Positions 41,328-61,783 of a stretch of 64,000 nt of DNA are shown here, one piece after another. A model generated the notes under the pieces. That model was not told the DNA's origin, made no database searches, and saw only the letters and a list, made by a program, of their open reading frames with translations. Within the stretch, counting starts at the first letter, position 1; every line of letters begins with the position of its first letter. Both the position numbers and the translations under genes were made by a program. The stretch comes from a bacterium HR28 (GTDB taxonomy: Bacteria; Chloroflexota; Chloroflexia; Thermomicrobiales; Thermomicrobiaceae), in contig BEIE01000001.1 in the NCBI GenBank assembly GCA_002898255.1, forward strand, positions 930,001 through 994,000, written 5' to 3'.

Positions 41328-41356
41328 AGTTTATGGGAAAACCATGAGCTTCGCAA
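41328..41356 (-). promoter_or_regulatory. Promoter of the substrate-binding gene at 41151
   Basis: On the minus strand: TTGCGA (41356-41351), 17-bp spacer, TAAACT (41333-41328). The IclR-type operator lies exactly 7 bp upstream of the -35. Confidence 0.65.
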
Positions 41357-41363
41357 GCTGGCG

Positions 41364-41380
41364 GTTCTGCTATCCTGAAC
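41364..41380. promoter_or_regulatory. IclR-type operator O1
   Basis: GTTCTGCTATCCTGAAC, matching GTTC-N9-GAAC. Seven bases (41357-41363) separate it from the -35 of the substrate-binding promoter. Confidence 0.7.
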
Positions 41381-41458
41381 GACCGCCCGAGCAGCACTGC
41401 GCAGGAGGGGGTGGCCGTCCCCGTTCTTGAGCCTCGAGGGTGCGACCAGGTGCAGCAA

Positions 41459-42178
41459 TTACTGGCTACCGAGGTAGGCTGCTCGCACGGCGGGGTCGTC
41501 CTGGAGCTCGGCGGCACTTGACGCATGCACCAACTCGCCGTTGCTGAGCACTGCGCCGCGTTGGGCGACGGCGAGACTGAGGTGGGCATTTTGCTCGACG
41601 AGTAACACGCCAATACCTTGAGCCGCGATCTGCGGCAGGACACGGAGCAGTTGTTTGGCTAAGACGGGCGCCAGTCCAAGCGTCGGTTCGTCCAAGAGGA
41701 GAAAGCGTGGCGCCGAAAGCAGTGCCCGAGCCACGGCCACCATCCGTTGCTCGCCGCCGCTCATCGTACCGACCCGTTGATTCCAGCGTTCCTTAAGGCG
41801 AGGGAAGAGACTCAGGGCGAATTCCAAGAGTTCCTTCTCTTTCGCGCGTGCTCGGCGTGGAAACGCTCCGAGCAGTAAGTTCTCGCGCACAGTAAGGTCT
41901 GTGAAGGTCCCACCCCGCTCCGGTACCAGGATGAGTCCTTGCTCGACGATCTGATGCGTCAAGTTACGGCGCACGAGACTTGTTAGGTCAAGGCCGTCGA
42001 GCAACACATGCCCACTAGCTGGGCGAACCATCCCCATGGTTGCCCGGAGGAGGGTCGATTTCCCGGCGCCGTTCGCTCCGAGCACGACTACGATTTCGCC
42101 CGGTTCCACCTGCAGCGACACGTTGCGGATTGCAGCATGCAGGCCGTAGTACACGGTCAACTCTCGGATCTCAAGCAT
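41459..42178 (-). CDS. livF: Branched-chain-type ABC transporter ATPase (LivF-like)
   Basis: 239 residues. Walker A GANGAGKSTLLRA (residues 39-51), Q-loop, signature MSGGEQRMVAVARAL, Walker B RFLLLDEPTLGLAP, switch His in LVEQN. Start at 42178 (MLEIRELTVYYG) overlaps the fused LivMG stop by 8 bp. It energises import together with the fused LivG domain. The following binding-protein gene has its own promoter. Confidence 0.92.
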   Translation of the reverse strand: MLEIRELTVYYGLHAAIRNVSLQVEPGEIVVVLGANGAGKSTLLRATMGMVRPASGHVLLDGLDLTSLVRRNLTHQIVEQGLILVPERGGTFTDLTVRENLLLGAFPRRARAKEKELLEFALSLFPRLKERWNQRVGTMSGGEQRMVAVARALLSAPRFLLLDEPTLGLAPVLAKQLLRVLPQIAAQGIGVLLVEQNAHLSLAVAQRGAVLSNGELVHASSAAELQDDPAVRAAYLGSQ

Positions 42179-43940
42179 TGTCAGCCTCTCCGAGATAGAC
42201 ACGAACGACTTCCGGATTGGCAAGCACCTCTTCCGGCGTACCCTCGGCGATCTTCTGACCAAAGCTCATGACGATACAGCGGTCGCAGAGACGACGCACC
42301 GCTTGCATCAGATGTTCGATCAGCACGATGGTTGTTCCCCGTCCGCGCAACGACTCGATGAGTTCCATGCCGATCAGCATCTCTGATGGATTGAGGCCGG
42401 CGAGCCACTCATCGAGCAGCAGCAGTTTCGGGCGTAGCGCAAGAGCGCGGGCGAGCTCCAGCCGCTTCTGGTCGATGAAGTTCAGCTGCCCGGCGGGGAC
42501 GTGCATGAACTGGCCCATACCGAGTTCCTCCAGCAACTCGCTCGCGTACTCTCGAGCTTCCGCAAGCGAGCGGACGTGGCCTCCAAACAAGGCGGCTGGG
42601 ACCACGTGATCAAGGCATGTCAGCGCTGGGTAGATCCGCACGAGCTGGAAGGTGCGAGCGATGCCGGCTCGTGCGATCTCTTCCGGGGCCTTGTGCGCGA
42701 GTGACCGCCCAAGGAAGAGAATTTGTCCGCGGTCCGGCTCGTAGACGCCGGAGATGAGGTTGAGAACGGTTGTCTTGCCCGAACCATTTGGTCCGATGAT
42801 GCCGAAGACTTCACCTTCACGAATCGTGAAAGAGAGATCGTCTACCGCAACGATACCGCCGAATGCTTTTCGCACTCCGTTCACTTCAAGCAAGACTGCT
42901 CCGTTCAGTGTCGATGCCCGCGGTGTTCCAGTTATCCCGTCGACTCCTGGACTTGCTGTCCGCGTTGGCGTCGAGGGGACCAGGGGTGCGCTGAGGGATG
43001 CCGGAGCAGCTGTCGGGGCGGGTGCTGCGCCGCGCAGACGTTGGAGCTTGGGAAGAAGACCGAGAATGCCATCGGGGATGACAAAGACGATCACCATGAA
43101 GAGGAGACCAAGGATCAGCGTGTAGGTGGTCGGGAAGCGCGCATTCAACTGGTCAAAGAGAATGACGAGAGGGATGGCCCCGACCAGCGGACCCCAGAAG
43201 CGTTGCATACCACCGAGGAGCGCAATCACGGCGGGCATGAAGGAGAGCGTCGGATTGAACGCGATGTTAGGATCCAGGTAGGTCCAGCGGGGTGCCACAA
43301 TTGCGCCGGTGACCGCCATGATCGCAGACGTCAAAGCGAGTACAACCACCTTCACGGCAGTCGTGCGAACCCCGCTATGCCGTGCTGCGAGTTCGTCCTC
43401 CCCAATCATGAGGAGCGCCAGCCCATAGCGTGATCGGGCTAGCAGCCACCCGCCGAGGAGTGTCAGGGCGAGCAAGGCCGTGAGGCTCCAGTAAATCTGC
43501 CGTGCAGTGATATCCGTGATGATGTAAACTCCGACGGATCCAGTGACGTTCCGTTGATACCAGGTCATCAGCTGGCGGATCAGCTCGGCCAGCCCGAAGG
43601 TGAAGATGGTGAAGTACATTCCCTGAATCCGCAGCGTTGTAAGGCCGACAAAGGTCGCGAGCACCGCACCGATCAGCGCCGCGATTGGATAGAGTGCAAG
43701 CATCGGAACGCGCTCGTAGAAGAGTCCGACGGTGTAGGCGCCGACCCCGAAAAACGCGGCCGTCGCAAGGCTGATGTACTTCGTCGGCCCGGCGAAGAGT
43801 CCCCACGCCGTCGCCAAGACGGCGTTGAGCAGAATCGAGATACCGAGCGCGATGTAGAAGTCGTTGCCCGTGAATGGTACCAGGGCTGCGAGAACGAGCA
43901 TGACCGGGAGTACTGCGATGCGTGTGATGGAACCCATCAC
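42171..43940 (-). CDS. Fused ABC permease-ATPase (LivM-LivG)
   Basis: 589 residues. Residues 1 to about 300 are LivM-type permease (8-10 helices, with the EELAARHSGVRTTAVKV EAA-type loop near residue 180), then a Pro/Ala/Thr linker (about 305-340), then a LivG-type ATPase with Walker A GPNGSGKTTVLNLI, a signature AGQLNFIDQKRLELARALA in place of the standard LSGGQ, and Walker B LLLLDEWLAGL. LivM and LivG are normally separate. The GTG/ATG start overlaps the LivH stop by 4 bp. Confidence 0.9.
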   Translation of the reverse strand: MMGSITRIAVLPVMLVLAALVPFTGNDFYIALGISILLNAVLATAWGLFAGPTKYISLATAAFFGVGAYTVGLFYERVPMLALYPIAALIGAVLATFVGLTTLRIQGMYFTIFTFGLAELIRQLMTWYQRNVTGSVGVYIITDITARQIYWSLTALLALTLLGGWLLARSRYGLALLMIGEDELAARHSGVRTTAVKVVVLALTSAIMAVTGAIVAPRWTYLDPNIAFNPTLSFMPAVIALLGGMQRFWGPLVGAIPLVILFDQLNARFPTTYTLILGLLFMVIVFVIPDGILGLLPKLQRLRGAAPAPTAAPASLSAPLVPSTPTRTASPGVDGITGTPRASTLNGAVLLEVNGVRKAFGGIVAVDDLSFTIREGEVFGIIGPNGSGKTTVLNLISGVYEPDRGQILFLGRSLAHKAPEEIARAGIARTFQLVRIYPALTCLDHVVPAALFGGHVRSLAEAREYASELLEELGMGQFMHVPAGQLNFIDQKRLELARALALRPKLLLLDEWLAGLNPSEMLIGMELIESLRGRGTTIVLIEHLMQAVRRLCDRCIVMSFGQKIAEGTPEEVLANPEVVRVYLGEADNA

Positions 43941-44815
43941 CGGAGTGCCCTTCCAAAAATCCCTGTACGCATCGTGAGCACCGCAAGGACGAACAAGCCA
44001 TAGACTGCTGCCAACGTGAGGCCCGGACTAATGAACCGGGCCACAAATGATTCAGTGACGCCGAGGATGAGACCTGCGACGAGCGCCCCTACAGCATTTC
44101 CAACGCCACCCATGATCACCACGACGAGTGCCTTCAGCGTGAAGGTGACACCCATCGGAACGTTGAAGGTCTGGAACATGCTGATGAGAACGCCGCTTGC
44201 TGCGCAGATGATGCCGCCAAACGCAAAGGTCAAACCAGCCCACCGGCGAACATCGATCCCGGCTAATGGAGCTCCGTCGGGATCGACGGCAATCGCACGG
44301 ATCGCCGTACCGATCCGCGTGCGAACGAGCAGAAGATAAGCGAAACCGCCGAAGGCCAGTGCGAGGACCAAAGCCAACAGGCGGTTGGCCGGAACCACGC
44401 TCCCGAGGAGCTGTACCGGAACCAGCAAGTACGAGTAGCTGAACAGCTTGCCGCCGAAGATCGCGAGCATCGCTCCAGAGACGACAAACGACAGGCCGAA
44501 CGCCAGAAGGATGCTCGAGGCTTCCATCGCTCGCCAGGAGCCGCGACGCCGCTCAAGCTGGACGAAGACGAGATGGTAGACGAGCAAATGGATGAGGAAG
44601 CTCGCAGGCAGGAGAAGCAGGAGAGAGACAAGCGGACTGAGTTGAAAGCGTTGGTACAGCAGCGTCGCAAACACTGCTGCGGCGATCAGAAAATCTCCGT
44701 AGGCCAGGTTGAGAATCCTGGCGACGCCATATTGGAGGGTCAGTCCGAGCGCCAATAAGGCGTAGATCCCCCCGTAGACAAGCCCTGTCACGAGCGCATC
44801 GAGTATCGACGTCAT
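43937..44815 (-). CDS. livH: Branched-chain-type ABC permease (LivH-like)
   Basis: 292 residues, 8 or more membrane helices. LivH features: LDALVTGLVYGGIYALLALGLTLQYGVARILNLAYGDFL, and the EAA-like loop RAIAVDPDGAPLAGIDVRRWAGLTF. Partner of the fused LivM domain, which it overlaps by 4 bp. ATG with GGAGGGG upstream. It follows the substrate-binding gene at 45106 after a strong hairpin. Confidence 0.92.
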   Translation of the reverse strand: MTSILDALVTGLVYGGIYALLALGLTLQYGVARILNLAYGDFLIAAAVFATLLYQRFQLSPLVSLLLLLPASFLIHLLVYHLVFVQLERRRGSWRAMEASSILLAFGLSFVVSGAMLAIFGGKLFSYSYLLVPVQLLGSVVPANRLLALVLALAFGGFAYLLLVRTRIGTAIRAIAVDPDGAPLAGIDVRRWAGLTFAFGGIICAASGVLISMFQTFNVPMGVTFTLKALVVVIMGGVGNAVGALVAGLILGVTESFVARFISPGLTLAAVYGLFVLAVLTMRTGIFGRALR

Positions 44816-45013
44816 CTCCCCTCCGTCGTTTCCGGCCGCTCGACTGATCTCTCTGTTCCGACTCGGTGTGTCGGCAACGGAACTTTAGCGATCAAGCAGA
44901 TTGTAATGGGCGAACGCCATCGTTTCAAGATCTCCTGGTGTCCAGCCGCTGCGTCGTCCGCTTCGTCGCTGGGTCCGGCTGGAGCAGGTTTGCGCATGCG
45001 AAAGGTGGGCGTT

Positions 45014-45048
45014 GAGCTGTCTCCTGGCAGCGCACCAGGAGACAGCTC
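45014..45048. terminator. Intercistronic hairpin between binding protein and livH (system A)
   Basis: 14-bp perfect arms (GAGCTGTCTCCTGG, 45014-45027; complement 45035-45048), loop CAGCGCA. Located just past the stop of the binding-protein gene. With no T tract on the minus strand it would act as a partial terminator or an RNA stabiliser. Confidence 0.65.
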
Positions 45049-45105
45049 GACGAGTGCCCGGCCCAGTGCCGCACCAGCCGGGGTGTGCGCAGCGCGAATG
45101 CGCCG

Positions 45106-46434
45106 TCACTTCTTCCAGGCCGGCTTGGGCACGATCGGAGTAGCAGCGGCCTTGTTCTTTGGCCAGAGCGCCAGAAACTCCCCATTCTGCCACTGGCCGA
45201 GAAGCCAGTTGCCGTAGTAAATGTTCCCTTCCAGCTTCACCGTCCCGATGATTGTCTGGAACGAACCGGTTGCTACTTCGCGAGCAACTGCCTGCCGGTC
45301 GACTTTGCCGACCCGCTCCAGCGCTTGCTGAAGGACCTGGAGAGAGGCGTAACAAACCGGACTGCCCCAGCGATCGGGATCTTGCCCAGTGACCTCCTTG
45401 TGACGCTTGTAGTAGTCCATGAGGCCTGGAGCCTTCGGATCGATGCCTCCTAGCCCCATGACGCCTTCGGCATTCTGCCCGAACTTTCCGACATAGACTG
45501 GGAATGCTGTGCCGACTGCTGTGAGAAAGACTGGGGGATTGAAATCAACAACCATCGCTGCTTCGGGGAGGGTAAGCGTGTCTGCCGGATAACTGCAGGC
45601 GACGAAGGCGTCCGGCTGCCGCTGCTTGATGTCAGTCAGAATCGGCTGAAAGTCAGTGGTACCAAGCGGATATCCCTGATCATAGACAAGTTCGAACCCC
45701 GTTGCCTTAAACTTCTTCCGAGCAGCTTCAGACAACTCGAGGCCAAACGCGTCATCGACGTAGATCAACGCCACCTTCTTGCCGATTTTGCCCTGGTTGG
45801 CAAGGTCGCTGAGCAGATCGGCTACTGCTTCCGAGTATTGACTGGAGGTGCCCAAGAAGGAGAAGTATCCTGGCCATTGCTTAACAAGTTCCGGGGTCTT
45901 ATCACTGAGATTTGCGACACCAAGTTGGGGATAGCCGAGCTGATGGAAAACGGGTGCCACAGCGAGGTTCATCGCCGTGCCCCAGGGCGGAAGGAGAAGG
46001 TCGACCTTATCCTGGTTGACGAGACGTTGAATCGCCTTGATTGCTTCTTCAGGGCTGCTCTGATCATCGTATTCGATCAGTTCAACGGTGTAGACACCGT
46101 CGCTGAGCTTGATCCCTCCCGCGTCGTTCACATCCTTCGCCCAGAGGACATAGTTCGGGTAGATGGTGATTCCCGCGCCCGCTGCATAGGGCCCGCTCTT
46201 CGAGATAGCGAACCCGACGCGGAGCGTCTTCTTCGGTTGCGTCGCGACCACGGTCGGCGTCGGAGCGGCTGCTGTGGTCGGCGTCGGTGACGGCTGTTGG
46301 GCAGGCGCTGACGTGGGTGACGGTTGTGGTGCGGGCGTGGGTGTTGCCTGCCCACCTCCGCAGGCCGCCAACAGGGCTGATATGCTGGCCGTTCCGATGA
46401 GGCCAAGAACCGCGCGACGCGTATAGCGCTGCAT
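45106..46434 (-). CDS. ABC transporter substrate-binding lipoprotein (LivK/aromatic-acid type)
   Basis: 442 residues. MQRYTRRAVLGLIG is a Tat-like signal and LLAACGGG the lipobox; a Pro/Thr/Ala linker is followed by LRVGFAISKSGPYAAGAG. Start at 46434 rather than 46452 because GAGGAGG lies just before it. Highly similar in layout to the protein at 39805 (VVATQPKKTLRVG versus VVATQPTKTLRIG), so the two are recent paralogues serving the same permease. Precedes livH. Confidence 0.88.
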   Translation of the reverse strand: MQRYTRRAVLGLIGTASISALLAACGGGQATPTPAPQPSPTSAPAQQPSPTPTTAAAPTPTVVATQPKKTLRVGFAISKSGPYAAGAGITIYPNYVLWAKDVNDAGGIKLSDGVYTVELIEYDDQSSPEEAIKAIQRLVNQDKVDLLLPPWGTAMNLAVAPVFHQLGYPQLGVANLSDKTPELVKQWPGYFSFLGTSSQYSEAVADLLSDLANQGKIGKKVALIYVDDAFGLELSEAARKKFKATGFELVYDQGYPLGTTDFQPILTDIKQRQPDAFVACSYPADTLTLPEAAMVVDFNPPVFLTAVGTAFPVYVGKFGQNAEGVMGLGGIDPKAPGLMDYYKRHKEVTGQDPDRWGSPVCYASLQVLQQALERVGKVDRQAVAREVATGSFQTIIGTVKLEGNIYYGNWLLGQWQNGEFLALWPKNKAAATPIVPKPAWKK

Positions 46435-46544
46435 CGAATACCTCCTCCTCATGTGACCTCACAACCGTCTCTCTGCGCGAAAACTCACCAACCACCGGCA
46501 AACGAAATACCGAGTCTTTGAACGAGATCAACTGACTCAAACGC

Positions 46545-47564
46545 CTACTCAGCGGAGGCCACGGCCGTACTCTCCGCACCAATCTGGGCCGCTGGTGTCC
46601 CGTACACCCAGTATTCGACTGGGAAGCTGCCACCGAGCCAGGGCAGGCCACCCTCTTGGGCGGCGCGCTCGATGTGATCCTCAGTCCAGCGGATGGGACG
46701 CCAGTCTGGTTCGAAGATCAGATATCCAACGTCGCCGAAGAGTTCGATGCGATTACCACCTGGCTCATAGACATATAACGGCATTGCTTGGGTGATTCCG
46801 TGCTTTGCTGGCCCGAGCTCGATGTGAATTCGATTTTCGCGGAAGAGGTCGCCGACTTCCCAAAGTTGATGCGGATAACCGTACCAGTAGCAAACGTGAT
46901 GCAGGCGTCCGCCCGGACCGGCCTCGTCGTGCATGAAGGCGATCTCGTGGACCATCGGGCTAACGGAGAGCCAGACGCCGCGGTAGCCGCCGGAACGCGC
47001 TTCGATGTACTCCCGAAGCTGGAAGCCGAGCGTATTCATCATGAACTCACCGCAGCGCTTGACATCCTTGGCAAAGAGGTTGATATGGTCGAGGCGGCGG
47101 ACCGGCACACCGCGTCCCGGCCGCTTCTGCGGTCGATTCGGGAGACGACTCTGCAGTTCTCCCGGCGCCTCGTACCACTCGACCTCCCAGAAGATTTCCA
47201 TTTGGTGACCCTCGGGCGTCGTGAAGCGGTACGCCGGACCGTGCCCTACGTCCCCATCGATCCAGCCTTGGCCAAGACCAGTTGCCTCGATCACTTGCAC
47301 GCGGCGCTCGAGGGCTCGCGGTGAGCGGGCCCGCCACGCGGCGTGGCCAAGCCCTGGCTTCTCAGACGGGGTGAGCTTGAGTGAGGTAAGATAGCGCTCA
47401 TCGAAGGCGCGCAAATACACCGCCCCGTCCTTCCTCGCCACCTCCTCCATGCCAAGGAGATCGCGGAAGAACCAGAGCGATCGCTCGAGATCGGGGGTGA
47501 GCAGTTCCACGTGTGCGAGCTGTGCAACGTCGAAGATATAGCCGTAATCCGCTGCGGCCGACAT
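46545..47564 (-). CDS. Type I extradiol ring-cleavage dioxygenase (catechol 2,3-dioxygenase-like)
   Basis: 339 residues, four VOC modules in two domains. Fe ligands His160 (RRLDHINLF), His222 (GRLHHVCYW) and Glu274 (GGNRIELFG), with catalytic His206, His255 and Tyr264 matching the XylE pattern. The DHIN, LHH and RIE motifs show an active-type enzyme, unlike the structural N-terminal domain. It cleaves catechols in meta position. It has a paralogue at 55718. Preceded by an IclR-type operator and promoter; GGGGAGG precedes ATG 47564. Confidence 0.92.
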
Positions 47565-47629
47565 GCTGTACCTCCCCTGCCAACCACCTAGGATCGTTGC
47601 GGATCCAAACAGGACGCTGTCTACTGAAT

Positions 47630-47659
47630 AGGATAGATAACGATCTAGAGAGTATGCAA
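47630..47659 (-). promoter_or_regulatory. Promoter of the extradiol dioxygenase at 47564
   Basis: Minus strand: TTGCAT (47659-47654), 18-bp spacer, TATCCT (47635-47630). Confidence 0.65.
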
Positions 47660-47666
47660 GTTTTAG

Positions 47667-47683
47667 GTTCAGATAATCAGAAC
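47667..47683. promoter_or_regulatory. IclR-type operator O2
   Basis: GTTCAGATAATCAGAAC, seven bases upstream of the -35 of the dioxygenase promoter. Confidence 0.7.
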
Positions 47684-47707
47684 AAGCATATAGTTCATTG
47701 CTTAATA

Positions 47708-47724
47708 GTTCAATATATCTGAAC
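47708..47724. promoter_or_regulatory. IclR-type operator O3
   Basis: GTTCAATATATCTGAAC, 41 bp from O2 centre to centre (about four helical turns), in the same AT-rich intergenic stretch. Possibly a second, cooperative site. Confidence 0.6.
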
Positions 47725-47729
47725 CCATC

Positions 47730-48671
47730 TCAGTCGATAAGAGAGCTTTCTCTCGCTTCCCATGACGGAACGGATGGGGGCCACATAGCGAGATCGAACG
47801 GGAAGTCCGAGCCAGGTACGAGGCGATCCGGTCCCACCAAGGCAGACAGGTACTCGATTGTCTCCCGACGCCACAACACGGTGTCGTACCAGAACCGACG
47901 AAGATACGCTGTCGGTGGTGCGGCGAGCTGCCGTCGCACCGCCTCCCAGACCTCATAGCCCTTTTCGAGTCGACCAAGCTGGTAGGGGAGGTATCCACCT
48001 CCATGAGCAAGAAGAATTCGCACTCGCGGATATCGGTCGAGCATGCCACCAAAGATGAGGTCTACTGCTGCAACTGTTGTCTCCCACGGCACGCCGACAA
48101 GGTTCGGTAATTGAGGGCGTGCGAGTCGTCCATCGCGGCTCAGAAGCGGATGCAGGAAGATGATCGCCTGCCGCTCGTCGGCAGCACTCCAGAATGGCGC
48201 AAAGAACGGGTCGCTGAGGAGGCGATCTCCAACACCTGGGCCGACAATTGCTCCACGCATCCCCTGCTCCATGGCCCAGACGAGCTCGGTTGCCGCGGTG
48301 TCTGGGTCATTGAGCGGGACAGTCGCGAGGAGCGCGATTCGATCTGGGGCCGTGGCTCGCCAGGCGAGAAGTGCCTCGTTATACGCGCGTGCTGCCTCCC
48401 TGGTGAGACTCGGGTCGGCGTCATAAAAGAACAGTTGTGGCACCGGAGACAAGAGCGCTTGCTGAACACCCGCGGCTTCCAGCTCTTGGAGAAACTGATC
48501 ACGGTCGTGGAAGACAGGTTTAAGCTCGAACGGCCAACGGCCGCCGACGATCAGGAAGGGTGCCTTGCTCGGGTCGCGTCGCTCGAAACGCGCGTCGGCC
48601 TGCTCGCTGTGCTCCCGCAGCCAATCCAACATCCCCTGAGGAATTGCGTGGATGTGGTGATCGATCGTCAT
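47730..48671 (-). CDS. Amidohydrolase-family protein (ACMSD/gamma-resorcylate-decarboxylase type)
   Basis: 313 residues, metal-dependent TIM barrel. MTIDHHIHAIPQ gives the DxHxH-like metal site; SPVPQLFFYDADP and the later FLHPLLSRDGRL and LAHGGGYLPYQLGRLEKG motifs with the Asp in LVPGSDFPFD are characteristic of the ACMSD group of non-oxidative decarboxylases, for which metal His and Asp are as here. Function as decarboxylase or hydrolase is undetermined. Start at ATG 48671 with AAGGAGAGG; GTG 48674 is the alternative. Confidence 0.8.
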   Translation of the reverse strand: MTIDHHIHAIPQGMLDWLREHSEQADARFERRDPSKAPFLIVGGRWPFELKPVFHDRDQFLQELEAAGVQQALLSPVPQLFFYDADPSLTREAARAYNEALLAWRATAPDRIALLATVPLNDPDTAATELVWAMEQGMRGAIVGPGVGDRLLSDPFFAPFWSAADERQAIIFLHPLLSRDGRLARPQLPNLVGVPWETTVAAVDLIFGGMLDRYPRVRILLAHGGGYLPYQLGRLEKGYEVWEAVRRQLAAPPTAYLRRFWYDTVLWRRETIEYLSALVGPDRLVPGSDFPFDLAMWPPSVPSWEARESSLID

Positions 48672-48787
48672 CACACCTCTCCTTGATCCCTGTGAGTCGG
48701 CCTCGTCGAATCGTCAGTGCGGAGCATAGAGAACGGGAAACCGTCTGCCAGCCTTCCGTTCGCCTATACAGGACAAAGGTGCCTATT

Positions 48788-49498
48788 TCAGCGGCGCCTT
48801 TCCCCTCGCCTCCGCTCTACACGCCGTACAAGGAGCTCCCAGGCGGCTGAGAGTTGCGTTGGCCCGTAGCAATGTTCTCGCTTGGTCAGTGCCTCTGCGT
48901 CGCTGGACCATGTGTGAGGCCCTCCAGCAGCCATCGCGAGGAGCTGCTTGTGACAGGCTCGCTCGAGCAGAAGGGCGCGGAACACTGCGGTGGGGACATC
49001 TGGTCCCACTGTGACGATGCCATGGTGAACGAGGAGGATCGCTGGCCGATCCCCAAGCGCGTCAGCTAACTGCTTGCCGAGCTCAGGCGTCGTGATCAGA
49101 TCTCCGGTCAGTGTAAAGCGAGGAATATCGGGTGGAACGAAAACCGTCGCCTCGTGACTGATCGGCCGCAAAGGAACGCCGAGCGCGGCAAAGGCGAGCG
49201 CATGGGGCGGATGCGTGTGGACCACGGCGTTGACATCCGAACGGGCGCGCATGATTTCGGTGTGGATCGGGTATTCGCTATGACGTTTCCCGGAACCGAC
49301 CAGGACGGTTCCATCCCAGTCGACAAGGAGGACGTCACTGGGCGTGACTTCCTCGAAGCCGAGGCCCGCTGCTTTCATCCACACGCCGCGACCATCCGGA
49401 TCTCGTACCGACACGTGTCCCCATACATAGTCGTCCTGTCCCTCAAGGGCGAGTACCTGACAGGCAACTGCAACCAGCTCGCGAAGATCCATCTCCAT
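48788..49498 (-). CDS. Class II aldolase/adducin-family protein (3,4-dihydroxyphthalate decarboxylase-like?)
   Basis: 236 residues. Zinc-dependent class II aldolase fold: GHVSVRDPDGRGVWMKAAGLGFEEV, HTEIMRARSDVNAVVHTHPPHALAFAALGVPL with the His-x-His ligands, VLLVHHGIVTVGPDVPTAVFRA, and Glu-rich YPIHTEIM. Family members include L-fuculose-phosphate aldolase and dihydroxyphthalate decarboxylases. Placed between two other putative decarboxylases in an aromatic cluster, so the latter role is favoured but unproven. Confidence 0.75.
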   Translation of the reverse strand: MEMDLRELVAVACQVLALEGQDDYVWGHVSVRDPDGRGVWMKAAGLGFEEVTPSDVLLVDWDGTVLVGSGKRHSEYPIHTEIMRARSDVNAVVHTHPPHALAFAALGVPLRPISHEATVFVPPDIPRFTLTGDLITTPELGKQLADALGDRPAILLVHHGIVTVGPDVPTAVFRALLLERACHKQLLAMAAGGPHTWSSDAEALTKREHCYGPTQLSAAWELLVRRVERRRGERRR

Positions 49499-49509
49499 AC
49501 CTGCACCAC

Positions 49510-50716: not shown

Positions 50717-51433
50717 TCACACCTCGACCCGTAGACCGAGGTACGTCTCCTGCAGATCCCGGTTCGCGAGGAGTTCTTGCGCCGAGCCGTGCCAAATGAC
50801 TCGCCCCTCTTCGATAATGTACGCAACGTCGATAACTGAGAGGGCAAGATCGAGGTTCTGCTCGGCGAGGAGAATCGAGAGCCCCGCCTGCTTGAGTCGC
50901 TGCAAGATTTCGCCGACGCGCTGCACCATCACTGGTGCCAATCCCTCGGACGGCTCGTCACAGAGCAGGACGAGCGGTTGGGTCATTAACGAGCGTGCAA
51001 TGGTGAGCATTTGCTGCTCACCACCACTAAGTAGCGTGCCGCGAATCTTCCCGCGTTCCTTGAGGATAGGGAAGAGGCGGTAAATTTCCTCGACCGTCCA
51101 CCGCACCCGCTGGTCGGGGCGTGGTGGGCGAGCGCCTAGGAGGAGGTTTTCCGTGACCGTGAGTGAGGGGAAGATCCGTCGCCCTTGTGGGACAAGGGCC
51201 AGGCCCTTACTCGAGATAACGTACGGTGGCAAACCGATTAGCGACTCCCCGCGCAGCCGAATTTCTCCTGCCAAGCGCGGAAGGAGCCCCATGATGGCAC
51301 GCATCGTTGTCGTCTTGCCGGCCCCGTTGCGACCGAGCAGCCCGACGACTTGTCCCTCTTCTACGGTGAGGGAAAGACCGTTGAGAACAAATCCTTCGCC
51401 ATAGCCACCGTAAACGTCACGCAGCTCCAGCAT
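50717..51433 (-). CDS. livF: Branched-chain-type ABC transporter ATPase (LivF-like, system B)
   Basis: 238 residues. Walker A GRNGAGKTTTMRA, signature LLSGGEQQMLTIARSL, Walker B LVLLCDEPSEGLAP. Start at 51433 (MLELRDVYGGYG) overlaps LivG by 17 bp. Last ATPase of the second transport system, followed by 208 bp before the Pht5-like gene. Confidence 0.92.
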   Translation of the reverse strand: MLELRDVYGGYGEGFVLNGLSLTVEEGQVVGLLGRNGAGKTTTMRAIMGLLPRLAGEIRLRGESLIGLPPYVISSKGLALVPQGRRIFPSLTVTENLLLGARPPRPDQRVRWTVEEIYRLFPILKERGKIRGTLLSGGEQQMLTIARSLMTQPLVLLCDEPSEGLAPVMVQRVGEILQRLKQAGLSILLAEQNLDLALSVIDVAYIIEEGRVIWHGSAQELLANRDLQETYLGLRVEV

Positions 51434-52190
51434 CGCGTCCTCGCATCGCTCCCGCGAGATAGGCAGCCTGCACGTCCTCGTTCTGCTGGATTTCGTCTGG
51501 CGTTCCGTCAGCCAGCACCGCCCCGTGGTGCAGGACGGTGATGCGATCGGCAAAGGAGAAAACGACTCGCATGCTGTGCTCGACGAGCACAACCGTCATG
51601 TCTCGTGGGAGTTGCTTGAGCCGTTCGATAAACGCGGGTATCTCGTCGACAGCCAGTCCAGCGGCTGGCTCATCGAGGAGCAAGAGCTTCGGGCGCAGGG
51701 CAAAGCGTGCAGCGAGCTCCACTCGCCGCTGGTAGCCGTGGGGAAGATGCCGGACTTCGACGTCACTCACGTCGAGCAATCCCCACTCCTCAAGCACCTG
51801 CTCTGCCAGGCGCTGAATCTCACGGTCGCGCTCGACGAGTCCACCGAGCCCCAGGGGCGAGTGGCGTCCGCGCAGCAGAGCAATCAGGATGTTTTGGCGT
51901 GTCGTTAGCTCATGGAAGACTGCTGGTTGCTGATTGGTTTTCAGAAGGCCGACGTCGACTCGACGATGGGCGGGGAGTTTTGTGACATCGCGTCCGAAAA
52001 CGAGCACTCGACCCCGTGTGGCCGGGAGGAACCCCGCGATGACATTAAGTAGTGTCGTCTTCCCTGCGCCGTTTGGCCCAATGATCGCTCGCCGTTCCCC
52101 TGGCTGGACGGTGAGCGAGATGTCTTCGAGAATAGTGAGACCGCCAATGACCTTGCTGACGTGCTCGAGCTGTAGTGCTGGTACGGCCAT
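51417..52190 (-). CDS. livG: Branched-chain-type ABC transporter ATPase (LivG-like, system B)
   Basis: 257 residues. Walker A GPNGAGKTTLLNVIAGF, Walker B LLLLDEPAAGLAVDEI; the signature is replaced by VRHLPHGYQRRVELAARFAL as usual in LivG. 2 bp after livM and overlapping livF by 17 bp. Confidence 0.92.
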   Translation of the reverse strand: MAVPALQLEHVSKVIGGLTILEDISLTVQPGERRAIIGPNGAGKTTLLNVIAGFLPATRGRVLVFGRDVTKLPAHRRVDVGLLKTNQQPAVFHELTTRQNILIALLRGRHSPLGLGGLVERDREIQRLAEQVLEEWGLLDVSDVEVRHLPHGYQRRVELAARFALRPKLLLLDEPAAGLAVDEIPAFIERLKQLPRDMTVVLVEHSMRVVFSFADRITVLHHGAVLADGTPDEIQQNEDVQAAYLAGAMRGRDAGAA

Positions 52191-52192
52191 CG

Positions 52193-53242
52193 TTAGGACC
52201 TCTCGATGACTCGTTCGACCGCGCGTTCGGATGGAGTGTGATGCGCTGGTGCTGTCGGCCGAGGAAGCGGGGCTTCTCGCCGCAGTTGGGCACGGATCTC
52301 ACGAATGCGATTCGGCAACCGCACAATTCCCTGTGGAAGCAAGAGAACGGTCAGGATGAAGACAATACCGAGGATCATCACCCAGCGCTGAGTGAAGGCG
52401 CTCACCTCATAACGCAGGAGAAGGACAAGGATTGTCCCGATCGCTGGGCCCCAGAAGGTGCCGGCACCACCGAGAATGACCATAACCATGCCTTCGCCAG
52501 CGAGGAGCCAACTAATCTGCCCTGGCCCGACAAAGCCTTTGAAGTACGCGAACAGGCCTCCGGCCAGCGCGCCGTATCCGCCAGCGAGCGCATAGGCCAC
52601 GTACTTCAGCGTCCACGTCGGATAGCCAAGGCCTTCCAGATACCGCTCATTCTCGCGGATACCCACGAGCGCAAGTCCAAAAGGAGAGCGGACTACCCAT
52701 GCGATGGTAGCGATCGCGATGCCTACGACGATAAGAGTCAGGTAATAGAAGTTAGCGGTATCAGACACGCGGCCGAGGAGGAACGGCAGCTTGGGGGTCG
52801 GAATACCGGGAAGACCGTCGTCACCCCCTGTGACTCGACGCCAGAGCCAGACGATCCCGAAGAGTACCTGTGTCAACGAAAGAGTCAGGATGAGGAAGTA
52901 CGCGCCGTGGGTGCGCAAGACGAACGGTCCCGTGATGAGCGCGAGTGCGATGCCAGCGACTACTGCAATGAGCAAGGCAAGCGGCGCCGGGGTGCCAAGA
53001 TATTTGGCAAGGAGCCCGACTGCGTAGCCGCCGGTTCCGAAAAAGGCAGAATGGCCGAGCGATGGCAGGCCAGCGTACCCGAGCAGGATGTTGAGCGACA
53101 TTGCGAAGAGCGTAAAGATCAGAATTTCTGTTAAGACGCTGAGAGGGTATGTCGGAAGGACGAACGGTGCGATGAGCAGCAGAACGAGCAGCCCGAGGAT
53201 CGCGGCCGGTCGCCACTGAGCGCTGATGGACTTGGCGTTCAT
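52193..53242 (-). CDS. livM: Branched-chain-type ABC permease (LivM-like, system B)
   Basis: 349 residues, about ten helices; EAA-type loop VGIRENERYLEGLGYPTWTLKYVAYALAG. GGAGAGGAG precedes ATG 53242. Separate LivM and LivG here contrast with the fusion in system A. Confidence 0.92.
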   Translation of the reverse strand: MNAKSISAQWRPAAILGLLVLLLIAPFVLPTYPLSVLTEILIFTLFAMSLNILLGYAGLPSLGHSAFFGTGGYAVGLLAKYLGTPAPLALLIAVVAGIALALITGPFVLRTHGAYFLILTLSLTQVLFGIVWLWRRVTGGDDGLPGIPTPKLPFLLGRVSDTANFYYLTLIVVGIAIATIAWVVRSPFGLALVGIRENERYLEGLGYPTWTLKYVAYALAGGYGALAGGLFAYFKGFVGPGQISWLLAGEGMVMVILGGAGTFWGPAIGTILVLLLRYEVSAFTQRWVMILGIVFILTVLLLPQGIVRLPNRIREIRAQLRREAPLPRPTAPAHHTPSERAVERVIERS

Positions 53243-53260
53243 GGTCTCCTCTCCGTCCCT

Positions 53261-54118
53261 TCACGCTGCGCGGCCGAGCAGGCCTTGCGGACGAACGATA
53301 AGGACCAACGCAGCGAGTGCCCACACGGCGAAGAAGGAGGCCTCAGGCCAGAATGTCCGCACGATTGTATCGACCAGCGCAACGACGATGCTCGCGACAA
53401 TGGCACCGGTCACTGATCCCAGACCTCCAAGGACAACGACGATGAGGGCCATGAGCTGCAATTGAATATCCGTGCCCGGTGCCACGCCAGTCACCGGGGT
53501 ACCGAGCGCTCCACCCAGACCACAGAGCAATGCTCCGAGCGAGAAGACAATCGCGAAGACGCGACGAGCGTTAATACCAAGGCACTGTACCATCTCGAGA
53601 TCGTCGACTCCGGCGCGCACGTAGGCGCCCCACTTCGTCCGCTCCAGGAGATACCAGACGAGGACAGCCAGCAGTGCACCAATCCCGATGAGCGCGACTC
53701 GATAGATCGGCACGACTGAGCCAAAGAGCTCCATCGAACCGCGCAGGAGTTCCGGTGGGCGGAGCCGCAGCGGGTCACCGCCCCAGATCCAGCGGGTCAC
53801 GTCTTGCACAATGTATGCAACACCGAGCGTCAAGCAGACCTGCAGCAGCTCCTTTCGGTGGAGACGCTGCAAGAAACCACGCTCAATCAGGACCCCGACG
53901 ACGAGTGCAGCAAGGGCACCGGCGATGAGCGCGAGGAAGAAATTCCCCGTGGAGCGGGCCACCGACCAGCCGATGTACCCCCCGATAAGGTACAGCGATC
54001 CCGTCGCGAGATTGACAAACCGCATCAGCCCGAAAACCACCGAGAGCCCGACCGAAACCAGGAAGAGGAGGCTCGCATACGACAATCCGATGACGAGGCT
54101 CGCAGTGTTGACCGGCAC
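53261..54118 (-). CDS. livH: Branched-chain-type ABC permease (LivH-like, system B)
   Basis: 285 residues with multiple membrane helices; VNTASLVIGLSYASLLFLVSVGLSVVFGLMRFVNLATGSLYLIGGYIG and the loop GVDDLEMVQCLGINARRVFAI are typical. GTG start at 54118 with AAGGGACG upstream. It follows the binding-protein gene across a strong hairpin. Confidence 0.92.
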   Translation of the reverse strand: MPVNTASLVIGLSYASLLFLVSVGLSVVFGLMRFVNLATGSLYLIGGYIGWSVARSTGNFFLALIAGALAALVVGVLIERGFLQRLHRKELLQVCLTLGVAYIVQDVTRWIWGGDPLRLRPPELLRGSMELFGSVVPIYRVALIGIGALLAVLVWYLLERTKWGAYVRAGVDDLEMVQCLGINARRVFAIVFSLGALLCGLGGALGTPVTGVAPGTDIQLQLMALIVVVLGGLGSVTGAIVASIVVALVDTIVRTFWPEASFFAVWALAALVLIVRPQGLLGRAA

Positions 54119-54225
54119 CGATCGTCCCTTTCCGCTCGCTTCACCGGTTCGTGTCTGGCCTTTGCGGCGAGCGCCGTTGATATCTCAACGATACTCGAGC
54201 GACTCAGAAGACGCAAAAGGGCGAG

Positions 54226-54261
54226 CGTTGAGGGTGGCGGCTGCTACCGCCACCCTCAACG
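54226..54261. terminator. Intercistronic hairpin between binding protein and livH (system B)
   Basis: 15-bp perfect arms (CGTTGAGGGTGGCGG, 54226-54240; complement 54247-54261) with loop CTGCTA, directly downstream of the binding-protein stop. Same placement as in system A. Confidence 0.65.
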
Positions 54262-54267
54262 ATGCGA

Positions 54268-55620
54268 TCAGAACGACAGGTCATCGACGTTCTCGCGCTT
54301 GCCTAGAACCACGTTGCCAAGCGATCCGTCTGGCAGCCGTTGGACCTTACGGAAGTAGACCGTCAGCACGACGTTCTGCGTCTCCGGATGGAAACGGAAC
54401 GGTCCAGCCGGGCCGACGAACTGGACATCCTTGATTGCCTTAAGAAGCGCCTGCTTGTCCTCGACTTTGCCCTGAACCTTGCTGAGAGCTTCCGCTGCGA
54501 CGCGACCAGCGATGTAGCCCTGGTAGGCGAACTGGTTCGGGATTCGTCCGTACTTCTTCTTGAACGCGTCGACAAAGGCCTTGTTCTCGGGCGAGTCGAT
54601 GTGTGGCGAATAGTGCAATGAGGTGACCACATCGAGTGCTGCATCACCTTGCTGGTCGAGGTAGGCCTCGTCCACAAGATCACCCACACCGATCAGCGGG
54701 AACTGGTCTTTCAGACCGAAGTCCGCGTACTGCTGGACAAACCGAACGGCGTCGGCCCCAGCGAAGAACGCCCAGACCGCGTCGGCCTGCATTTGACTGA
54801 TGCGCTGGAGGAACGGCGCGAAGTCAGCGGTGTCCAGTGGCGGATAGACTTCGCCAGCGATTTCTCCCCCTGCATTCTGGAACGCCTTCTTAATCGCTTC
54901 GGCCTTCTCGTGCCCGGCGACAAAGTCGGATGCAGTGAAGATGAGCCGCTTGTAGCCCAGCTGCTCAACGGCATAGGGCCCGAGGGGCCACTCGTACTGA
55001 CCGTTGGCGAAAGAGACACGGAAAATGTAGGGACTTCGTCGTTGTGGATCACGCGTCAACGCCTGTGCACCGGCGTTGTCCACAATGGTGGGTACTCCAG
55101 ACTGGTGAATGTAATCGCGGACGGCAAGTGCCACACCACTGTGGTTGTAGCCGATAATGAGATGGACCTTATCGCGCTCCACAAGCTGCTTGGTCTTCGT
55201 GAGGCCCTGCTCCGGATTCGAGGCGTCATCCTCCTGAATAAAGGTCACCTTGCGTCCTGCCACGGTGTTGTCGATCGACTCAAAGTAAAGCTGGATTCCC
55301 CGGGTAAGGTTTTCGGCGAGCGCTGCAAAGACACCGGTATAGCCGTGAATAAGCCCGATGCGCACCGGCTCGGCCGCAGCAGCCGGAGTGACAACGACGG
55401 TGGGGGTTGCCGCCGCTGCTGGGGTTGGTGTGGCGGCAGGTGGTGTGGGAGTTGCCGGCGCGGGCGTCGGCGTAGCTGGTGCCGAGGTGGGCGTCGGCGT
55501 TGCCCCACCACCCGCACAGGCACTCAGTAACCCGCCAAGTGCAGCCACACCCACTCCAAGGAGCAGGCCGCGCCGCGATACTCGTCGACCGAGTACCGGA
55601 TGGGGTTCTGGATGAGCCAT
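54268..55620 (-). CDS. ABC transporter substrate-binding lipoprotein (system B)
   Basis: 450 residues. Tat-like RRVSRRGLLLGVGVAAL and lipobox LLSACAGG, then a long repeated Ala/Thr/Pro linker (about residues 38-80) and a LivK-type domain starting VRIGLIHGYTGVFAALAENL, with FIQEDDASNPEQGLTKTKQLVE. Start at ATG 55620 or 55623; GAGGAGG is upstream. Distinct in sequence from the two system A proteins. Confidence 0.88.
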   Translation of the reverse strand: MAHPEPHPVLGRRVSRRGLLLGVGVAALGGLLSACAGGGATPTPTSAPATPTPAPATPTPPAATPTPAAAATPTVVVTPAAAAEPVRIGLIHGYTGVFAALAENLTRGIQLYFESIDNTVAGRKVTFIQEDDASNPEQGLTKTKQLVERDKVHLIIGYNHSGVALAVRDYIHQSGVPTIVDNAGAQALTRDPQRRSPYIFRVSFANGQYEWPLGPYAVEQLGYKRLIFTASDFVAGHEKAEAIKKAFQNAGGEIAGEVYPPLDTADFAPFLQRISQMQADAVWAFFAGADAVRFVQQYADFGLKDQFPLIGVGDLVDEAYLDQQGDAALDVVTSLHYSPHIDSPENKAFVDAFKKKYGRIPNQFAYQGYIAGRVAAEALSKVQGKVEDKQALLKAIKDVQFVGPAGPFRFHPETQNVVLTVYFRKVQRLPDGSLGNVVLGKRENVDDLSF

Positions 55621-55673
55621 CATTCCCCTCCTCACGTCATCGAGAACCGACCCGACCCACGCAGCGTAGTGAC

Positions 55674-55703
55674 GGAGCCGGCAGGGTTTACCCTGCCGGC
55701 TCC
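55674..55703. terminator. Intercistronic hairpin between dioxygenase and binding protein
   Basis: 13-bp perfect arms GGAGCCGGCAGGG (55674-55686) and complement (55691-55703), loop TTTA, in the 97 bp after the dioxygenase stop. Confidence 0.6.
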
Positions 55704-55717
55704 TACCGCAGCCTTAC

Positions 55718-56698
55718 TTAGACGCGCACCGTTACCTTTTCCGGTGTGCCATAGGTGTAGAACGACTCCGGCATGGTCGACGCGCCAAGCCAGACGGTGC
55801 TCGAGTAGAGATCCGACTCGTGCGAGACGTCCCAGACAACTGTCTGCCAGTTGGGATCGAAGATCAGATATCCGGCATCGCCCCAGAGTTCGACTCGGTT
55901 GCCGCCTGGCTCAAAGACGTAGAGGAACATTGCCTGCGTTGTGCCGTGCTTCCCCGGGCCAGCTTCGATCTTGATACCCCAGTCGCGGCAGGCGTCAGCG
56001 ATGTCATAGCAGTGTTGCGGGTATCCGTACCAGTACGCGATGTGGTGCAGGCGGTTCCCCTGACCAGTTCCATCGCGCATGACTGCAATTTCGTGAACGA
56101 GTGGGCTGACGGAAAGCCAGGACCCCACCTTCTTCCCGTTGCCGTCGATCTTCGTTTCGCGCAGCTTGAAGCCGAGATACTCGCGCAGGAACGCTTCGTG
56201 CGTCTCGACGTCGGTCACAAAGCAGTTGATATGGTCGAGCCGGCGCACCGGCACACCGTCGAGCGGTCGCCGCTGTGGGCGGTTCTTGAGTGCGCTCTTC
56301 TGATCCTCGGGGGCCTGATAGTACTCCAGATCCCAGACCAGCTCCATGCGATGCCCATCCGGCATGCGGAACTGGTACGCACGCCCAGCCCCGTACTCGC
56401 TCTCTTGCCAACCAAGTCCCAAACCTGCTGCCTCGATTTTGGCCGCTGCCTCATCGAGGAGCTCCGGCGCGGAGACGCGCCATGCGGCATGCCCTAAGCC
56501 GGCCTGCGGCGCTTCGGTCAGCTTCAGTGTCCAGAGGAACCAGTCTTCATAGGCCCGCAGGTACACCGACTGTCCCTCGCGGTGCACCACGCTCATGCCT
56601 AGGAGTTTGGTGAAGAACCAGAGGCTTTCCTCTGGCTTTGGAGTGTAAATCTCGACGTGCGCAAGCTGCGCGACCACCGGAACGCGAACGTCTGCCAT
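55718..56698 (-). CDS. Type I extradiol ring-cleavage dioxygenase (catechol 2,3-dioxygenase-like)
   Basis: 326 residues. Fe ligands His156 (RRLDHINCF), His218 (NRLHHIAYW) and Glu270 (GGNRVELWG); catalytic His202, His251, Tyr260. Clear paralogue of the protein at 46545 (same LSVSPxVHEIA, KHGxTQAM and GYLIFxPxW stretches), but under a different promoter. It is 34 bp downstream of the HpaB-type monooxygenase, so hydroxylation and cleavage are coupled. Substrate preference of the two paralogues probably differs. Confidence 0.92.
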
Positions 56699-56732
56699 GA
56701 CTCACCCTCCTTTCGGGCGACTTCCCCCAACC

Positions 56733-58268
56733 TCACCGTCCGGTACCGTCCGGTTCCCACACCCATGTAGAGTCGCGCCAGCCTGTGAGATCGTACTGGT
56801 TGAGACATTCGTCGACGAGGGCCTTCCACTGTTGCATGAACCCGCGTCGCTCTGCCCACTGCAGCGGATCGAGGTACTTCTGCTCGTGGTTACCCGCGTA
56901 GTTCAATTCGTAGAGACCGTGGCGGCCACCGAATTCGGAATAGAGTGCATCCCAGACGAGCTTGTAGAGCTTGCTGCGCTCCTCAGCCGTCATCCCGGTG
57001 CCGCGCAGGTAACGATCCAGGATCGGTCGCACCTCCGGATTGAGGAAGTCTCGGTAGCTTGAGACGTTGATAATGGGCGCACCGCCCAGGATGCGCTCGT
57101 AGATCTGGCGGATCCGATCCCAAGCGAAATTAGTATAGACCCGCGCCGCAGCAGCATATTCGAGTCGCGGCACAACCGAACCACCGAGACTCGGCTCGGG
57201 ATCGCTCACCATAGCAGTGACGATCGCCCACAGGAGGTGTCGCAAGGCGACGAGCTCGCCAACCAACACCTGGTTACCACGGAAGTCCGCTGTCCCGTTG
57301 CACTCCAGCCCCTTCTGCAGGAGCCCAATCATGAACTCCAGCTTGATCATGAAGCGGATCGTTGTCTGGAGGTTGAAGCGGTTGAAGAAGCCGGAATCGG
57401 CGTAGAAGCGCTTGCACTTGGCAACGTCGCGGTAGATGAGGACGTCTTCCCAAGGAATGAACGCCTCGTCGAGCACGAGGAAGGCATCGTTCTCATCGAA
57501 GCGGCTGGACAGCGGATTGTCGAAGGGGCTTTCGGCATTCAGCTCGTAGGAGGCGCGCGAGATCAGGTATTGTCGCGGATTGTCCATGCGGACGAAGAAG
57601 ACGAGCGCCACATCTTCGTCGCGCCCCTCCTGAAGCCGAGCCGCGCTCCCGCTATTGACACCGACAAAGGTGCCGTGCGTCAACGCCGAAGCTGTCGCGA
57701 CCTGCTTGGCGCCACTGACGATAATCCCGCCGTCCGTCTCCTTGACGACGTGGATATACACGTCGCGTACCTCGCTCGGCGGCCGGTTGCGATCAATCGG
57801 CGGATCCACGATCACATGGTTCATGAAAAGGACGCGGGTCGCGTACTCGCGATACCAGCGCCGGGCGGTCTCGCCGAAGGGTGCATAGTAGTCGGGATCA
57901 GCGCCGAGCGTCGCCATGAACGCTGCTTTGTACTCGGGCGTGCGCCCCATCCAGCCGAAGCTCATGCGCTGCCAGAGGGTGATAGCCTCAGCCGCTTCCT
58001 TCAGGTCCTGGGCTGAGTAAGCTGGAGCGAAGAACTTGTGGGTCAAAATACCCCAGCGATCGACCTTGGTTAAAATGTCGCGTGTCTCGGGCGCATGGAG
58101 CGCGTCATACAGACGCGCAACCGACCGTGCGGCATTGCGGAACGCCGGGTGGGTGGTGACGTCCTTGACCCATTCGCCGCGGAAGAAGACCTTGCGCCCA
58201 TCACGCAAGCTCTCCAGGTACTCCTCCCCCGTCATCGGACGAGTTGGTGTCCCCACCACTTGTGTCAT
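56733..58268 (-). CDS. hpaB: HpaB-family flavin-dependent aromatic monooxygenase (oxygenase component)
   Basis: 511 residues of the 4-hydroxyphenylacetate 3-hydroxylase/phenol hydroxylase (two-component, FADH2-using) family: TGEEYLESLRDGRKVFFRGEWVKDVTTHPAFRNAARSVARLYD, GVNSGSAA, LVLDEAFIPWEDVLIYRD, and the long C-terminal helical bundle. Takes reduced flavin from the reductase at 61205. Substrate could be phenol, a cresol or 4-hydroxyphenylacetate; the DmpF/DmpG pathway genes downstream favour phenol-like compounds going through catechol. ATG 58268 has GAGGAGATGG upstream. Confidence 0.88.
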   Translation of the reverse strand: MTQVVGTPTRPMTGEEYLESLRDGRKVFFRGEWVKDVTTHPAFRNAARSVARLYDALHAPETRDILTKVDRWGILTHKFFAPAYSAQDLKEAAEAITLWQRMSFGWMGRTPEYKAAFMATLGADPDYYAPFGETARRWYREYATRVLFMNHVIVDPPIDRNRPPSEVRDVYIHVVKETDGGIIVSGAKQVATASALTHGTFVGVNSGSAARLQEGRDEDVALVFFVRMDNPRQYLISRASYELNAESPFDNPLSSRFDENDAFLVLDEAFIPWEDVLIYRDVAKCKRFYADSGFFNRFNLQTTIRFMIKLEFMIGLLQKGLECNGTADFRGNQVLVGELVALRHLLWAIVTAMVSDPEPSLGGSVVPRLEYAAAARVYTNFAWDRIRQIYERILGGAPIINVSSYRDFLNPEVRPILDRYLRGTGMTAEERSKLYKLVWDALYSEFGGRHGLYELNYAGNHEQKYLDPLQWAERRGFMQQWKALVDECLNQYDLTGWRDSTWVWEPDGTGR

Positions 58269-58326
58269 CGGCCCATCTCCTCGCGAACGTGTCCGACGCC
58301 TCGCGCGATTCTCCACTCCAGTCTCC

Positions 58327-58355
58327 AACCTAGAATGGCTGGGGACTCGTGTCAA
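58327..58355 (-). promoter_or_regulatory. Promoter of the HpaB-type monooxygenase operon
   Basis: Minus strand: TTGACA (58355-58350), 17-bp spacer, TAGGTT (58332-58327). Confidence 0.7.
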
Positions 58356-58362
58356 TGCATGT

Positions 58363-58379
58363 GTTCAGGTATACTGAAC
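58363..58379. promoter_or_regulatory. IclR-type operator O4
   Basis: GTTCAGGTATACTGAAC, almost perfect palindrome, seven bases (58356-58362) upstream of the -35 of the monooxygenase promoter. Confidence 0.75.
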
Positions 58380-58423
58380 CCGCGGCGTTGGCGGGCGTTC
58401 CTGGGCAGAATCACGGGTCGAGG

Positions 58424-58440
58424 GTTCATGCATCCTGAAC
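58424..58440. promoter_or_regulatory. IclR-type operator O5
   Basis: GTTCATGCATCCTGAAC, seven bases (58441-58447) upstream of the -35 of the regulator's own promoter, suggesting autoregulation. Confidence 0.75.
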
Positions 58441-58447
58441 AGGGCGC

Positions 58448-58476
58448 TTGCTGGTTTGGCAACGCGCTGGTATCGT
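58448..58476 (+). promoter_or_regulatory. Promoter of the IclR-family regulator and meta-pathway operon
   Basis: TTGCTG (58448-58453), 17-bp spacer, TATCGT (58471-58476). Confidence 0.65.
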
Positions 58477-59251: not shown

Positions 59252-60174
<923 letters not shown>

Positions 60175-60178
<4 letters not shown>

Positions 60179-61753: not shown

Positions 61754-61783
61754 GCTGGTCGCCGTGGGGAAGGGGAGAGGCTC

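Follow-up and report, generated by a model that had tools for sequence, protein, structure and literature searches.

Rigidly spaced GTTC-N9-GAAC operators point to a putative IclR-family activator of aromatic catabolism in bacterium HR28 and related Thermomicrobium genomes

Results

The window analyzed here is a stretch of 64,000 nucleotides from bacterium HR28, a member of the Thermomicrobiaceae (contig BEIE01000001.1, positions 930,001 to 994,000), which encodes an IclR-family regulator within a cluster of genes for the meta-cleavage of aromatic compounds. The window contains five palindromes of the form GTTC-N9-GAAC, starting at 41364, 47667, 47708, 58363, and 58424, all intergenic, and in four of the five the GAAC half-site is followed after 7 bp by TTGNNN and, 17 or 18 bp further on, by a -10-like hexamer. 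A preliminary description of this DNA had reported the same five palindromes, a 7-bp placement before the -35 boxes of all but the one at 47708, and a distance of 41 bp between that fifth site and the one at 47667; the coordinates and the placement proved exact, with the 41 bp running from center to center. Taken with the genome comparisons below, the arrangement makes it likely that the IclR protein is an aromatic-responsive activator of the GTT-11-AAC type, positively autoregulated and acting on distant promoters as well as on those of the cluster.

The promoter-linked sites are designated A to D, and genomes are numbered, with G000 being this genome. Operator A and its promoter (41328-41380, minus strand) consist of GTTCAGGATAGCAGAAC (41364-41380), 7 bp, TTGCGA (41351-41356), 17 bp, and TAAACT (41328-41333), and are predicted to serve a binding-protein gene; orthologous sites are present in two Thermomicrobium genomes, with 7 bp and one mismatch in G003 and with 6 bp to the TTG in G001. 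Operator B and its promoter (47630-47683, minus strand) combine GTTCTGATTATCTGAAC (47667-47683), 7 bp, TTGCAT (47654-47659), 18 bp, and TATCCT (47630-47635) ahead of an extradiol dioxygenase operon, and the G003 copy of the palindrome is identical. The auxiliary palindrome B2 (47708-47724, minus strand; GTTCAGATATATTGAAC) is centered 41 bp upstream of B, and at the corresponding promoter of three other species (G001, G003, and G004) a counterpart with no or one mismatch lies at 41 to 42 bp, or four helical turns. Operator C and its promoter (58327-58379, minus strand), with GTTCAGTATACCTGAAC (58363-58379), 7 bp, TTGACA (58350-58355), 17 bp, and TAGGTT (58327-58332), would serve the operon headed by the monooxygenase gene hpaB, and its spacing recurs before hpaB in G001 to G004, G006, G013, G016, and G018. 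Operator D (58424-58476 with its promoter, plus strand) would serve the iclR operon and comprises GTTCATGCATCCTGAAC (58424-58440), 7 bp, TTGCTG (58448-58453), 17 bp, and TATCGT (58471-58476).

Dinucleotide shuffles of the window gave an expectation of 1.18 palindromes, and five or more were seen in 1 of 100 shuffles. A scoring matrix assigns the five sites 20.6 to 24.7 bits and the next-best window site 9.5, the matrix being derived from these same five. The chance of finding a TTG at one given distance in four of five palindromes is about 2e-6, uncorrected for the post hoc choice of that distance. Other window palindromes with at most one mismatch have no TTG at 7 bp; among them, the one-mismatch palindrome at 48758 (GTTCGCCTATACAGGAC), between an aldolase and an amidohydrolase gene, was not counted, as it scores far below the five.

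The genome search for this geometry proposed in the preliminary description was carried out with pattern searches, on which all spacing statistics rest. Exact GTTC-N9-GAAC-N7-TTG matches number 13 in G000, and two further near-complete genomes of Thermomicrobium have 13 apiece, while a reversed-pattern control gave 0 to 4 matches in related genomes. Across spacings of 2 to 12 bp, the 13 matches at 7 bp stand clearly above the average for the other distances (2.7 in G000 and 2.4 in G001). When the window was withheld from G000, the 7-bp class still had 9 sites, compared with a mean of 2.6 for the other distances (P = 0.0015); when the cluster was withheld from G001, a second complete genome, the figures were 10 and 2.4 (P = 0.0002). 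Because the excess persists in these held-out data, the concern over post hoc choice of the distance is removed.

A set of 73 nonredundant sites was then assembled from ten genomes. TANNNT follows TTGNNN at 17 or 18 bp in 55 of the 73, against 0.5 expected and 0 to 4 at other spacings, although many of the sites are orthologous promoters, so that the binomial figure overstates their independence. The -10 box lay outside the search pattern, and its placement in these 55 fits a sigma-70-type promoter (TTGNNN and TANNNT 16 to 18 bp apart). Four exact matches in other genomes (L099, L116, L121, and L132) were left out as unconvincing after inspection of the downstream gene and the -10 region, which slightly biases the set in favor of the result. 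In G000 outside the window, such a -10 box is present at six of nine sites, the six having been identified by eye. One central base of the palindrome (position 9, counted from zero) is invariably A or T across the 73 sites, as in the published GTT-11-AAC motif of IclR group 1 (PMC8222616), and another central position is never G.

These tests bear on whether the palindromes are chance occurrences or the property of an unrelated regulator family, which we consider very improbable. The motif is short, with 1.2 copies expected per window, and of the 110 genomic copies the majority have no TTG at a set distance; such a reading is nonetheless countered by the held-out spacing excess, the independent placement of the -10 box, the conservation at orthologous promoters, and the co-conserved iclR promoter. 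Chance palindromes were accordingly rejected by the held-out spacing and -10 tests.

The orthologous iclR promoters of nine other genomes all carry the operator, with no or one mismatch, exactly 7 bp from a TTG. These nine (Thermomicrobium G001 to G005 and, from other genera, G009, G013, G016, and G018) are all the other genomes with a readable iclR promoter. In G006 the iclR gene lies at a contig end and its promoter is not readable, and the hpaB promoter there carries the site. In Thermalbibacter (G013), a single palindrome replaces the two divergent operators and has a TTG 7 bp away on both sides, suggesting that the spacing to the -35 box is the conserved feature. No exact site was found in G008, a family member without an iclR orthologue. 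The preliminary description had proposed an autoregulated aromatic regulon, a proposal that fits the presence of operators both before iclR and before catabolic genes in several species.

The extent of the regulon had been understated, however: the 13 exact sites are spread over the genome, and those outside the window include sites at genes for O-demethylases, alcohol dehydrogenases, a second HpaB, and a tannase-like esterase. From species to species, distant sites stand before corresponding genes, and the stretches that separate the boxes have drifted. By homology, these genes encode two HpaB monooxygenases, NDMA-dependent alcohol dehydrogenases, LigM/DesA-like O-demethylases (matching the LigM structure 5x1i at 3e-137), a tannase/feruloyl-esterase-like protein, an ABC importer, a PEP-utilizer-domain protein, and an E1 dehydrogenase. 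Such sites accompany O-demethylase genes outside the genus as well: G013 has one of these genes some 170 bp downstream of a palindrome with one mismatch and a second in a unit headed by an exact site. G005, of the same genus, has only 2 exact sites and lacks the regulated alcohol dehydrogenase clade. Loss of the regulator was rejected as the cause, since all four IclR genes are kept and it is the targets that have been lost.

Several further observations concern these loci. The only O-demethylase homologue found in G005 (C14:52257-53365; L195) is broken by several stop codons. Within a compact island of G000 (C2:390000-408500; L017), separate GTTC-N9-GAAC-N7-TTG promoters precede the genes for a LigM/DesA-like O-demethylase, a PEP-utilizer-domain protein, and a tannase-like esterase, and the palindrome before the tannase-like gene, GTTCTTCAGT(C/G)CTGAAC, is almost invariant in five species. 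G013 carries the iclR-led meta-pathway operon twice, and the second copy, next to the first (C1:344976-345782; L166:3971-4780), has a regulator that is 69% identical; a palindrome, GTTCAGTATAGTGGAAC, lies about 840 bp upstream of this copy, with no TTG at 7 bp.

In the window, the four promoter sites together head every transcription unit of the cluster, with operon limits taken from gene order and orientation. As judged from homology, the cluster encodes a meta-cleavage pathway together with importers and the two-component monooxygenase that belongs to it. Operator A lies before the gene for an ABC-transporter substrate-binding protein (Peripla_BP_6; 39805-41172, minus strand). Operator B heads a unit running from 47564 down to 41459, which begins with the gene for a catechol 2,3-dioxygenase-type extradiol dioxygenase (46545-47564, minus strand; TIGR03211, above its cutoff), the second such enzyme of the cluster, and also holds binding-protein, permease, permease-ATPase, and ATPase genes. 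The hpaB operon, from 58268 down to 47730, is headed by the gene for the oxygenase component of an HpaB-family flavin-dependent aromatic monooxygenase (56733-58268, minus strand) and further encodes an extradiol dioxygenase, a branched-chain-type ABC transporter, a class II aldolase/decarboxylase, and an ACMSD-like amidohydrolase. The conserved hpaB start is the ATG at 58268; the TTG listed as the start of the longest frame (58355) is the -35 box itself. Operator D precedes iclR (58494-59315, plus strand) and further meta-pathway genes (59261-63601, plus strand) for an acetylating acetaldehyde dehydrogenase, a 4-hydroxy-2-oxovalerate aldolase, a flavin reductase, a C-C hydrolase, and a 2-oxopent-4-enoate hydratase-like protein. 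The assignment of the sites in the preliminary description to the binding-protein gene, the dioxygenase, the monooxygenase operon, and iclR itself holds up.

The regulator has 273 residues and the two domains of the IclR family, HTH_IclR (PF09339, 54.4 bits) and IclR_C (PF01614, 169.3 bits), both above cutoff. Its closest solved sequence is the IclR of 1mkm (8e-29), and it is 98% identical to the iclR product of Thermomicrobium sp. CFH 73360, which marks the organism as a Thermomicrobium species. Its second-best NCBIfam match is TIGR02431 (PcaR/PcaU/PobR), at 164.4 bits against a curated cutoff of 284.75. It is a clear IclR member that falls outside the PcaR/PcaU/PobR subfamily by the curated cutoff.

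Four IclR genes are present in G000, and the GTTC-N9-GAAC operator with 7-bp geometry is absent upstream of the other three, which leaves the window IclR as the sole one linked in cis to N9 sites. P1 (C1:234711-235418; L027), 42% identical to the window IclR, has a GTTC-N8-GAAC just downstream of its own -10 box; such N8 palindromes occur in four genomes, G000, G001, G003, and G009 (orthologue loci L153, L156, and L160). P2 (C6:55851-56603; L026) has a TGTC-N10-GACA palindrome, of the TGTCTGAAATATCGGACA type, near its start codon, recognizable in the five genomes compared (orthologues L154, L157, L149, and L159), and the upstream region of P3 shows no obvious palindrome. The paralogues were rejected as owners of the window sites, as their own upstream regions carry different operators. 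Lying downstream of promoters, the P1 and P2 operators look like repressor sites, which would provide an internal contrast to the activator-like N9 layout.

We infer that the distant sites also belong to the window IclR. They might instead fall to another regulator with the same half-site, such as P1, leaving only the window cluster under this IclR; the O-demethylase, alcohol dehydrogenase, tannase-like, and second HpaB genes would then be targets of that other regulator, a division that we regard as unlikely but worth serious consideration. P1 has a similar recognition helix, much of it in common with the window IclR (PKSTLHAVLTTL in the comparison), and GTTC/GAAC half-sites; the distant sites are more variable at inner positions, and IclR proteins usually control adjacent operons only, according to a published survey (PMC8222616). 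Against this division, P1's own palindromes are N8, not N9, in all four genomes named above, and the distant sites have the N9 spacer and 7-bp geometry in common with the iclR promoter itself. Moreover, G002, which is 90% complete, still has 11 sites, and none of the three IclR genes found there is P1-like.

Discussion

We propose that a dimer of the window IclR binds the 17-bp GTTC-N9-GAAC palindromes. These have their center near -51, and exactly 7 bp separate them from the -35 boxes of the sigma-70-type promoters that follow. The bound protein would activate transcription by touching RNA polymerase, at sigma region 4, alpha, or both, probably upon binding of an aromatic pathway intermediate. 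Its targets in the cluster would be the monooxygenase/meta-cleavage operon, the second extradiol dioxygenase operon, the binding-protein gene, and, as positive autoregulation, its own operon. Beyond the cluster, it would also activate some nine promoters for the O-demethylation and oxidation of lignin-type aromatics, both here and in related Thermomicrobium genomes. The additional palindrome at the second dioxygenase promoter, placed in tandem four helical turns upstream, probably lets the protein bind cooperatively as a tetramer.

With a 17-bp spacer, the operator spans approximately -59 to -43, leaving the promoter free and keeping a fixed helical phase to the -35 box. From this nonoverlapping upstream position and the rigid spacing, contact between an activator and RNA polymerase is what we best infer, because a fixed upstream placement is needed to touch sigma or alpha and is not needed by a repressor. 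The same IclR could instead be a repressor or dual regulator that, without inducer, sits upstream of the -35 box and blocks RNA polymerase or holds it in an inactive complex, with the inducer causing release; we think this improbable. Several -35 boxes are near consensus (TTGACA/TTGACG), so such promoters might work unaided, and many family members repress, with dual regulators known as well (PMC8222616). Yet the operator lies outside the -35 and -10 boxes, steric repression does not require a spacing precise to 1 bp across dozens of promoters, and the paralogue palindromes, which are placed as a repressor's would be, come after the -10 box.

Some observations weigh against activation by this one IclR. 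Positive and negative autoregulation look alike in sequence, one orthologous promoter (that of operator A in G001) has a 6-bp spacing, and the hpaB side in G009 lacks a TTG at 7 bp. About one-quarter of the sites have no perfect TANNNT, and inner bases vary more in distant sites than in cluster sites. The GTTC half-site is common to P1, and some distant sites could be P1's.

Among known systems, Escherichia coli MhpR, which responds to 3-(3-hydroxyphenyl)propionate, is an IclR activator of an extradiol meta-cleavage operon that uses a 17-bp palindrome upstream of the promoter, like the arrangement proposed here. The MhpR palindrome lies near -58, and MhpR controls one operon; its operator, GGTGCACCTGGTGCACA, differs in spacing from the sites described here. 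PcaU, PobR, and PcaR, which act by activation on protocatechuate and 4-hydroxybenzoate genes, likewise combine the IclR family with aromatic catabolism. Their operator is of the GTTCGATWATCGMAC type, with three boxes for PcaU, unlike the operators here, whose targets are meta-cleavage and O-demethylation. Nothing usable was found in the literature on the start-site geometry of MhpR, PcaU, and PobR or on IclR in Thermomicrobium.

The closest description of the operator class is that of the GTT-11-AAC motif of IclR group 1, a 17-bp odd palindrome, GTTYCRYW3RYGRAAC, with an A/T center, and the only group-1 motif subgroup reported there for Chloroflexi (Suvorova and Gelfand 2021, PMC8222616). The operators here are 17-bp GTT...AAC palindromes with an A/T-rich center, but where the consensus has an inner C/G pair, the cluster sites mostly have A/T. 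By motif, the cluster operators are also similar to that of Rhodococcus opacus NpdR (2,4,6-trinitrophenol), GTTCMRYATMRTGAWS (PMC8222616, table 1); NpdR serves a different pathway. The survey reports that tandem IclR sites at about three and four turns are overrepresented, that many aromatic-metabolism genes are underrepresented in GTT-11-AAC regulons, and that an IclR protein as a rule regulates its own gene plus one or two neighboring operons (PMC8222616). Positions are given there relative to gene starts, and a fixed distance to the -35 box is not described in the sections consulted. Our literature search did not find the network and the rigid spacing described, although a computational prediction for Thermomicrobium roseum may already exist in the supplementary tables of PMC8222616.

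The kind of switch is already known, and some 13 promoters, mostly of aromatic catabolism and in one rigid geometry, would place this regulon at the large end of that kind, because published IclR regulons usually comprise the regulator and one or two adjacent operons, and GTT-11-AAC regulons are poor in aromatic genes (PMC8222616). We see an even chance that a single IclR is the master activator of lignin-type aromatic catabolism across the genus Thermomicrobium, acting from a single rigid position on about a dozen unlinked promoters. If so, the regulon would be unusually large and geometrically uniform for the IclR family, and it would show a distinct geometry of IclR activation in which one operator is able to fire two divergent promoters. 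The strict spacing and its natural variants (the shared operator, the 6-bp case, and the genome with lost targets) offer a clean set for studying the contact between an IclR activator and RNA polymerase. The motif also marks out further genes, for instance those for the alcohol dehydrogenases and the tannase-like esterase, as candidate parts of the same pathway, and with about a dozen target promoters per species it offers a concrete, testable control circuit for the breakdown of methoxylated aromatics in a thermophile of the phylum Thermomicrobiota.

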